Assembly (NCBI GenBank): GCA_019449635.1
Contig: JAGRPI010000004.1
Span: forward strand, 1 to 64,000
Direction of reading: 5' to 3'
DNA length: 64,000 nt
From: Candidatus Ferrigenium bremense
GTDB lineage: Bacteria; Pseudomonadota; Gammaproteobacteria; Burkholderiales; Gallionellaceae
The notes beneath the pieces are model-generated. The model did not search any database. It worked only from the letters and a program-made list of their open reading frames with translations, and was not told the origin of the DNA. This document shows positions 4,039 through 37,114 of this stretch, in pieces; the stretch's first letter is position 1, and each line of letters opens with the position of its first letter. The position numbers were made by a program, and so were the translations under genes.

Positions 4039-4228
4039 GAAGCTGTTTATAAAAGTGCTGCGCGATCGTGATGCAGGGTCGTGCGGTGCTCGGAATCCTC
4101 ATGTACTTCTGTGTACATTCCGGTTTGGCTACGACTAACCTGAAGGTAAGTCTTCACCGCAACTGCGTTGTCTGCGCTCCGGACTCCCTTACCTGACGAC
4201 CGCTCGGTGATTTTTCTAAACAGCTTCT
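4038..4228. mobile_element. MITE-like element A
   Basis: Terminal inverted repeats AGAAGCTGTTTA / TAAACAGCTTCT; shares core with element B in opposite orientation; left end overlaps the TGA of the DUF190 gene. Confidence 0.75.
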
Positions 4229-4246: not shown

Positions 4247-4837
4247 ATGAGCTCACCAATTTCGATGCGGCTGCTGTTGTCTGTAGTGGTGCTGGCGTTG
4301 CTGCCATCCTTTGCCTATGCCCATGTCGGTATCGGAGAAGCTGGCGGTCTTCTGCATGGCTTCACGCACCCAACCAGCGGCCTGGACCATGTCTGTGCGA
4401 TGCTGGCCGTCGGGCTGTGGGCGGCGCAGATGGGCGGACGTTCCGTGTGGGCGGTGCCGCTCACCTTCGTCGGCGTGATGGCGCTGGGCGGCGCATTGCC
4501 GCTGCTGGGCATCGGCCTGCCGTTCGTCGAGCAGGGCATCGTGCTGTCCGTGCTGCTGCTGGGCGTCTTGATCGCTGCGGCGATACGTCTGCCGCTCTGG
4601 CTGAGCAGCGGCATGGTCGGGTTGTTCGCGCTATGGCACGGCCATGCGCACGGCGCCGAGATGCCGGCGGCAGCCTCCGGAATCGAATATGCGCTGGGCT
4701 TCATGCTGGCGACGGCGTTGCTGCATGCCATCGGCATCGCGTTCGGCCTGGGGATGCAACGTCTGATGCATGAGCGCATTATTCCTGCGGCCGGCGCAAG
4801 CATCGCGCTGTGCGGGGTATATCTGGTAGCGGTATGA
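4247..4837 (+). CDS. HupE/UreJ family protein (putative nickel/metal transporter)
   Basis: HVGIGEAGGLLHGFTHPTSGLDHVCAMLAVGLWAAQMGG N-terminal signature; hydrophobic. Confidence 0.9.
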   Translation: MSSPISMRLLLSVVVLALLPSFAYAHVGIGEAGGLLHGFTHPTSGLDHVCAMLAVGLWAAQMGGRSVWAVPLTFVGVMALGGALPLLGIGLPFVEQGIVLSVLLLGVLIAAAIRLPLWLSSGMVGLFALWHGHAHGAEMPAAASGIEYALGFMLATALLHAIGIAFGLGMQRLMHERIIPAAGASIALCGVYLVAV

Positions 4838-4981
4838 GAAGCTGTTTAAAAAAATCAGCGAGCGGCTGTCAGGCGGGGGAGGCCGGAGCGCAGGAACCGG
4901 AGTGTACGCAAGAGTACATGAGGATTCCGAGCACCGCACGACCCCGCATCGCAGTCGCGCAGCATTTTTTTATCAGCTTCT
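4837..4981. mobile_element. MITE-like element B (inverted relative to A)
   Basis: AGAAGCTGTTTAAAAAAAT at the left end and ATTTTTTTATCAGCTTCT at the right; its reverse complement aligns to element A through GGTCGTGCGGTGCTCGGAATCCTCATGTAC. Confidence 0.75.
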
Positions 4982-5785: not shown

Positions 5786-5935
5786 GAAGCCGCTCGTGGT
5801 GAGCTTGTCGAATTATGAATGGCCGACGGAAAGGCTGTTCACCCTTCGACAGGCTGATAAAACAACTAGCCATTCCACTTGGTTGTCAAAAAAACGACAA
5901 CCAAGTAGCTGGTTATCAGGGCGAACGGTTGTTTA
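5786..5935. repeat. REP-like palindrome (GTGAGCTTGTCGAA..CCCTTCGACAGGCT..CAGGGCGAACGG) interrupted by a hairpin element
   Basis: Right arm CCCTTCGACAGGCT|CAGGGCGAACGG is split by an approx. 60-nt hairpin unit. Confidence 0.7.
5867..5915. repeat. Covarying hairpin element, copy 1
   Basis: TAGCCATTCC ACTTGGTTGTC AAAAAAAC GACAACCAAGT AGCTGGTTA; 11-bp perfect stem. Confidence 0.75.
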
Positions 5936-20408: not shown

Positions 20409-20453
20409 TCATGGCTTTGTATAGCCATCTGACAAGTTGGTAAACGCGTTGCA

Positions 20454-20501
20454 TAGCCATTCTGCTAAGTCACCAAAAGACGATGACCAAGCCGCTGGTT
20501 A
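20454..20501. repeat. Covarying hairpin element, copy 2
   Basis: TAGCCATTCTGCTAAGTCACCAAAAGACGATGACCAAGCCGCTGGTTA. Confidence 0.65.
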
Positions 20502-20509
20502 GCTCTGCA

Positions 20510-20557
20510 TGGCCATTCAACTAAGCTGGCAAAAAACGCCAGCCAAGTTGCCGGTCA
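20510..20557. repeat. Covarying hairpin element, copy 3
   Basis: TGGCCATTCAACTAAGCTGGCAAAAAACGCCAGCCAAGTTGCCGGTCA; 56-nt period from copy 2. Confidence 0.7.
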
Positions 20558-20579
20558 ACGCCAACAAAGTCATTGGTTA

Positions 20580-20612
20580 ACGGCAGTCCGCTTCCGGGCT
20601 GCCGTTTTCTTT
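20580..20612 (+). terminator. Rho-independent terminator-like hairpin
   Basis: CGGCAGTCCGCTTCCGGGCTGCCG followed by TTTTCTTTT. Confidence 0.65.
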
Positions 20613-20623
20613 TGGAGTGAAGA

Positions 20624-32477: not shown

Positions 32478-32637
32478 ATAATCCATTAGGCCGTCTACCG
32501 GCGAAGGCCGGTATCCAGCAATAAAAGATAGGCCGCGAAGCGGACAAAACATGAAGTTGTCCCACTTCGTGGGGGTTTATTAAACAACTGGATACCGGCC
32601 TTCGCCGGTATGACGTAAATTTTTGCTAATGGATTAT
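32478..32637. mobile_element. 160-bp MITE-like element with perfect 12-bp TIRs, upstream of recA
   Basis: ATAATCCATTAG (32478-32489) / CTAATGGATTAT (32626-32637); inner inverted TACCGGCGAAGGCCGGTATCCAG arms; CCCACTTCGTGGG hairpin. Confidence 0.85.
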
Positions 32638-32697
32638 CTCGGTTGATTTTTCATAGGGTGTGCCATAATCCGCGCACTATTTTTTGGGGAGAAAACG

Positions 32698-36927: not shown

Positions 36928-37078
36928 TTTCGTCGTTCCGGCGAAGGCCGGAATCCAGCAATAAAAAACAGGCCGCGTAGCGGACAAAAATATGAAGTTG
37001 CCCCACTTCGTGGGGATTTATTAAACAACTGGATACCGGCCTTCGCCGGCATGACGTAAATTTTTGCTAATGGATTAT
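36928..37078. mobile_element. Second, left-end-replaced copy of the recA-proximal MITE-like element
   Basis: GGCGAAGGCCGGAATCCAGCAATAAAA...CTGGATACCGGCCTTCGCCGGCATGACGTAAATTTTTGCTAATGGATTAT matches 32500-32637; left TIR absent. Confidence 0.8.
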
Positions 37079-37114
37079 CTCGGATAAAGGCTCACACATT
37101 AAGGAACGATACAG

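Follow-up and report, generated by a model that had tools for sequence, protein, structure and literature searches.

A mobile hairpin family of Gallionellaceae inserts at CT, nests within itself and lies in frame inside genes

Introduction

Three short hairpins lie at 5867-5915, 20454-20501 and 20510-20557 of the 64,000-nucleotide stretch of Candidatus Ferrigenium bremense DNA analyzed here (the window), raising the question of whether they form a family and, if so, what kind of element it is. A sequence-only reading proposed that they share a conserved frame around stems whose changes preserve pairing, and that selection acts on their structure, either as RNA or as a substrate for single-stranded DNA transposition. 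Among bacterial repeats, REPs are some of the commonest, and the movement of single REP copies has been inferred mainly from biochemistry and population counts.

Results

All three hairpins are present at these positions and fold as claimed, with shuffle z-scores of -5.7, -1.6 and -3.9 for the copies at 5867, 20454 and 20510, respectively. Inner-stem pairing was found in each, although that of copy 20454 is imperfect, with one inner mismatch, and its fold is barely above shuffles. We aligned the three with a fourth copy, found by pattern and located between cbbR and cbbM, and obtained a 17-pair structure in which 92.6% of cells are paired and 7 pairs are changed on both sides; 0-1 of 500 shuffles match it, and sliding the partners by 1-3 columns leaves at most 48.5% paired. 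A covariance model built from these four copies gave at least 145 matches in the host genome (2.4 Mb, Gallionellaceae), with 150 of 913 candidates scored. Further copies are thus numerous, and the pairing noticed in three is upheld in a larger alignment, where all 17 pairs are 83-100% canonical across 206 distinct 48-nt copies. In the same alignment, 7 of the 19 top coupled column pairs are predicted base pairs, including those ranked 1-3 (18-32, 10-40 and 9-41), fifth (20-30) and sixth (19-31). Columns 8-42 couple through an internal mismatch, either T.C or the swapped C.T, which is therefore itself kept. The resulting hairpin is imperfect and three-part: conserved outer and middle stems that retain internal loops, an A-rich loop, and an inner stem that is the most variable part and is entirely replaced in a 42-nt class (GCCCGCAAGCGGGC, GGCGGCAAAGCCGCC). 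The stem covariation of this family is real.

The family is present in 72 of 76 genomes of the host genus, with counted copies ranging from 0 to more than 70; all per-genome counts are lower bounds. Exact matches in named GTDB records, among the matches listed, belong mostly to Gallionella, Sideroxydans, Ca. Ferrigenium and other Gallionellaceae/Nitrosomonadales MAGs. We rejected a reading of the family as restricted to the genus (0/24 other families), because a wider, order-wide sample of 200 genomes contains the hairpin scattered over 15 genomes in 8 of 108 genera, other families included. At L378, which comes from another family, leader and target type (see below) are identical to those of the host. 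No Rfam family matched the hairpin above or near threshold, and a search of the open literature, with subscription papers outside it, yielded no description of such a hairpin family in Gallionella. Two IMG/VR tailed-phage contigs bear one copy each (L274 416-457; L275 5608-5655), showing that the element also enters phage DNA; as candidate vehicles they were rejected, being ordinary tailed-phage fragments with no obvious enzyme.

The mobile unit extends beyond the hairpin originally delimited. At the first site, the 49-nt hairpin with its 11-bp inner stem (5867-5915, 71.2 bits; this and all window features below are on the forward strand) is preceded by an 11-nt leader, GATAAAACAAC (5856-5866), and followed by a terminal T (5916), making this copy 61 nt long (11+49+1). 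The leader belongs to type 1, whose consensus GRTGRAACNAC comes from a profile over 92 sites; the T occurs in 96% of the 3' flank profile, and its boundary is unambiguous in a nested copy of genome G072. The element is placed within another repeat, CCCTTCGACAGGCT/CAGGGCGAACGG (a slash marks the point of insertion), the left half of which (5842-5855) ends in the CT target and the right half of which occupies 5917-5928. Rejoining the flanks gives TTCGACAGGCTCAGGGCGAACG, which occurs elsewhere in the genome at <=2 mismatches.

Most copies are such type-1 units (leader, hairpin and T) of 60 nt with a 48-nt hairpin. The length classes are 11+48+1=60 (65 copies), 12+47+1=60 (8) and 11+42+1=54 (11); 12-nt leaders mostly accompany 47-nt hairpins, the total staying 60 even between genes. 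Counted beside an 11-nt leader, the bases before the unit are CT at 72 of 92 sites and TT at 6 of 92, the remainder being mostly 12-nt leaders after CT; at the right end the cut falls after AT instead of CT. Across the fetched genome stretches in which we examined copies and restored sequences, exact excision at 88 sites restores, in 50 cases, a 22-mer that also occurs at another place in the genome, compared with 0 sites when the cuts are shifted by +1, +2, +3 or -1, 1 site at -2 and 2 sites with the left cut at -1. Target duplication is absent at insertions of the unit. Frequent targets are other palindromic repeats: CCCTCT/CCCGCAAGCGGG, GGCT/CAGGGCGAACGG (window 5867), GAGCCT/GTCGAAGGGC and CCCCT/TGACAAGGGG.

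The remaining two window copies are not simply adjacent: both lie within the loop of a fourth, interrupted copy. Its 5' arm, TAGCCATCTGACAAGTTGG (20422-20440), is identified by the uninterrupted ortholog TAGCCATCTGACTAAGTTGGTAAACTACGCCAACTAAGTCATTGGTTA in G021, and its 3' arm is GCCAACAAAGTCATTGGTTA (20560-20579). Between the arms, a type-2 leader, GCGTTGCA (20446-20453; common to G018 and to copies at C30:4099, C37:166386 and others), precedes the first nested hairpin (20454-20501, 76.1 bits), which is present in G018 and missing in G021. A second type-2 leader, GCTCTGCA (20502-20509), precedes the other (20510-20557, 81 bits), missing in both relatives. Adjoining the array and not part of it is an ordinary intrinsic terminator between fimV and truA (20580-20613), which is kept in relatives without any hairpin.

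At this fimV-truA site (window 20409-20613), relatives carry zero, one, two, three or more hairpins, mutually nested. G092, G027, G020, G017 and others have the terminator alone, G021 carries a single hairpin, G018 another within the loop of the first, and the window has two within the loop. Still more are found in G072 and G065, where some type-1 units follow GACT within the 5' arm of an older hairpin and others are inserted into such a unit in turn. The boundary in G072, GACT/60 nt/AAG versus GACTAAG in G021, is unambiguous and without duplication. Empty sites recur elsewhere: at aroA, both repeat and hairpin are missing from G021, G092 and G027, the repeat alone is present in G017 and G020, and the host has repeat plus hairpin, while at C31:125319 the unbroken repeat is kept in G021 and G027. 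Tandem dimers with a doubled leader, also observed, are explained as self-insertion at ACT/AGCC. Units with the second leader type, GCNNTGCA, are found nested within loops of hairpins; their ends are less sharply defined, with slightly different junction bases in G018 and G021. With these observations we regard it as nearly certain that the family is a mobile DNA element, one that has exact ends, prefers CT, leaves no target duplication, nests in itself and is tolerated in genes.

Several arrangements of the repeats deserve separate mention. Three tandem type-2 copies with identical GCCCTGCA leaders and a period of 54 nt occupy G000:C19:4630-4783. Repeated copies at contig ends (C9, C11, C29 and C3) were considered as an insertion sequence and rejected, no transposase lying beside the C14 copies; they appear to be a repeat with a nested pair inside. 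L312, the fimV-truA site of G096, holds an inverted repeat of another kind, which has TAGTGTAGTG... ends and encloses GTAG-type repeats, beside a diverged hairpin in the same intergenic hot spot. At L047 5461-5567, a hairpin element interrupts the D-arm of a 5' tRNA-Phe gene fragment; an intact tRNA-Phe gene follows about 200 nt downstream. The window also contains other repeats. Inverted copies at 4048-4228 and 4837-4972, 82-87% complementary, flank a gene for a HupE/UreJ-like membrane protein (4247-4837); one of them matches the Xanthomonas sRNA family sX9 (RF02228, 54.2 bits), and sX9, classed as an sRNA, could be a dispersed repeat itself. Near-identical direct repeats of about 145 bp with hairpins bracket a gene block at 32498-32642 and 36938-37083.

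About a third of the delimited copies are located in frame within genes. At 32 of 92 delimited copies, an open reading frame (ORF) runs through the element with at least 70 codons on each side, and 30 of these 32 are also open after excision; at 3 further sites of the 92, the ORF is open only after removal of the element. Of the 33 sites spanned by an ORF, 30 remain open across the element, with lengths that are multiples of 3. These counts are the fairer frame test, as comparing the proportion of lengths divisible by three (23/23 coding versus 62/69 other copies) is biased by the detection of coding copies through their open frame. Genes with in-frame insertions include def, murD, lpxK, kdsB, aroA and valS, and Pfam matches around or across the inserts comprise RecJ, MurD, TilS, peptide deformylase, valyl-tRNA synthetase, a KdsB-type cytidylyltransferase, LpxK (two inserts), EPSP synthase, a LysA-type decarboxylase and Mfd. 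Of the 32 coding copies, 27 are in sense orientation; the family overall occurs in both orientations relative to genes.

As a candidate mobilizing enzyme we considered the Y1/HUH transposases of the TnpA-REP (RAYT) kind. Hairpin number correlates with RAYT presence (rho 0.56 in 76 genomes; 0.71 in the 47 genomes at least 90% complete), in an analysis that ignores shared ancestry and uses lower-bound counts. The co-occurrence holds outside the genus as well (8/12 vs 4/23, p=0.007), again with shared ancestry ignored. A search with PF01797 at E<=1e-5 had shown no enzyme correlation; this result was misleading, because RAYTs here score near or below the cut-off (the host RAYT at E=3.7e-5), and a RAYT protein query reversed the outcome. 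Discordant genomes exist in both directions: G086 (93% complete, 46 hairpin matches) is one example of the hairpin-rich genomes without a detected RAYT, and G023, G001 and G070 bear RAYTs without hairpins. The 30 RAYT loci carry other GTAG repeats of their own, with hairpin-model matches near only a few, and at L352 it is the RAYT's own GTAG REP that contains the nested hairpin. No autonomous or gene-bearing version was found among 224 leader instances (2.0 Mb of fetched sequence), nor did the Y1 transposase loci examined have the hairpin at their ends. Single-strand insertion often gives a replication-strand bias; we detected no lagging-strand orientation bias (31 vs 35, p=0.71). Many different RAYT/REP pairs coexist within the host genus, and the host itself has RAYT genes at L057 1459-1995 (G000:C3:16734-17267), flanked by GTAGGTCGGGTTAGCGCAGCGTAACCCGAC repeats, and at G000:C42:95463-95963.

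Discussion

The initial proposal that structure matters as RNA or as a single-stranded transposition substrate gains strong support in its second half, from precise insertions, empty orthologous sites and self-nesting; its RNA half gains none, with copies in both orientations and Rfam silent. Taken as a whole, the family is probably a non-autonomous mobile DNA element of about 60 nt for which an HUH/RAYT step is proposed. Transfer of the element would proceed through a folded single strand, which a Y1/HUH transposase of the TnpA-REP (RAYT) kind, acting in trans, would cut and rejoin. We infer this route because covariation implies a need for the hairpin, target duplication is absent and the target is CT; TnpA-REP enzymes cut at CT, a site selected by the AG of their GTAG guide (PMC8266576). 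The HUH/RAYT step itself is a tentative assignment, falling just short of an even prospect. The lengths of 54 and 60 nt and the open frames may be the outcome of purging copies that break genes.

A conserved RNA element retained for a role in transcripts, whether as regulator, processing site or terminator, could display the same strong covariation, and many copies are intergenic, one adjoining a terminator and another between cbbR and cbbM. Yet orthologous loci vary in the presence and number of hairpins, copies occur in either orientation and within coding sequence, no T run follows the stem and Rfam holds no match at threshold, making this explanation highly improbable. The covariation might instead arise without selection for pairing, as a side effect of templated repair acting on imperfect palindromes, by template switching within the hairpin. 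Pairing-preserving changes are real and selection is not proven by them, as such correction could also yield them; the wholesale inner-stem replacement in the 42-nt class is what templated copying could do. Such repair would, however, pair columns 8-42, where a mismatch is conserved; internal loops also persist in the outer and middle stems, and we think this origin unlikely. Concerning copies inside genes, ribosomal bypass or removal from the RNA, a proposal made for hairpin inserts of yeast mitochondrial genes, would make the reading frame irrelevant and would suit their presence in essential enzymes whose domain matches show no obvious damage. The preponderance of ORFs open through the element, at lengths divisible by three, speaks against it, and we give it very little credence.

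A closer contest concerns the enzyme. The same mobile element may be moved by one unrelated to RAYTs, namely a different HUH nuclease, a tyrosine recombinase that works on folded strands or some host repair activity, and RAYT-rich genomes would then be richer in copies only through their REP target palindromes or lineage kinship. The separate GTAG repeats flanking RAYTs, the hairpins within such a repeat in L352, the hairpin-rich genomes with no RAYT detected and the failure to find an autonomous copy all favor this account, which we judge plausible, at somewhat less than even weight. Against it, CT specificity without target duplication fits TnpA-REP biochemistry (PMC8266576), and RAYT co-occurrence extends beyond the genus. 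Possible as well, although we lean towards doubting it, is that the family constitutes a distinct minimal class of single-strand transposon: a 60-nt hairpin whose leader is an 'address' specifying CT, which spreads into palindromes and into itself, has had its length filtered to a multiple of the codon, leaving three of the six frames readable and allowing spread through essential genes too, and is served by an enzyme other than a cognate RAYT.

With the RAYT-mobilized REP/BIME/REPIN repeats, the family shares short, high-copy palindromes, absence of target duplication, CT specificity and greater numbers in RAYT genomes; REPs within coding sequence and palindromes inserted in palindromes have been described (PMC3733652). 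Unlike them, it is longer (48-nt hairpin, 60-nt unit), nests in itself repeatedly and has insertion ends and orthologous empty sites resolved to the base. GTAG REPs have that motif at the 5' foot and are cleaved and inserted at CT, and an identical palindrome flanks the RAYT gene in inverted orientation (PMC2817692). The hairpin unit likewise inserts at CT, but its leader, ...AACNAC, stands directly before TAGCCA, with TAG at the foot of the CCA/TGG stem and G not the first base, and the hairpin does not flank the genes at the 30 RAYT loci. Rickettsia palindromic elements (RPE) and Wolbachia WPE are mobile palindromes found between genes and in frame in conserved genes, with no known transposase (PMC2229807, PMC3733652). 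Our family resembles RPEs in having both kinds of copies; RPEs differ in measuring 105-146 bp, in some cases with CGTC at one end, and in being restricted to Rickettsiales, whereas these 54/60-nt elements lack CGTC, target CT and belong to the order Burkholderiales (Gallionellaceae and scattered relatives). Strand-specific hairpin ends and insertion 3' of a short target without duplication are shared with IS200/IS605 and its non-autonomous derivatives (PMC8266576, PMC2817692). The present element, unlike those, has one hairpin only, and among the 224 leader instances no transposase-bearing version shares its ends. IS110/IS621 bridge-RNA recombinases also have a CT core and a REP preference; here the right junction is AT rather than CT, and the size and gene content of such elements are absent. 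The terminal inverted repeats and target-site duplication of classical DDE MITEs are not seen at the G072/G021 junctions or in the exact excision test. Integron attC core boxes read RYYYAAC ... GTTRRRY, a pattern that the hairpin does not match: its 3' side reads GGTTATS. Because the GTAG, flanking-RAYT, size and CGTC comparisons failed, we do not place the family among REPs or RPEs: it is a variant distinct from both, REP-like in its working and RPE-like in its behavior in genes.

The 'protein-coding palindrome' phenomenon, best known from Rickettsiales, is thereby found in free-living iron-oxidizing bacteria. With base-exact insertions, empty sites and nesting intermediates available in relatives, the mobility of such repeats, their choice of target and their mobilizing enzyme become testable.
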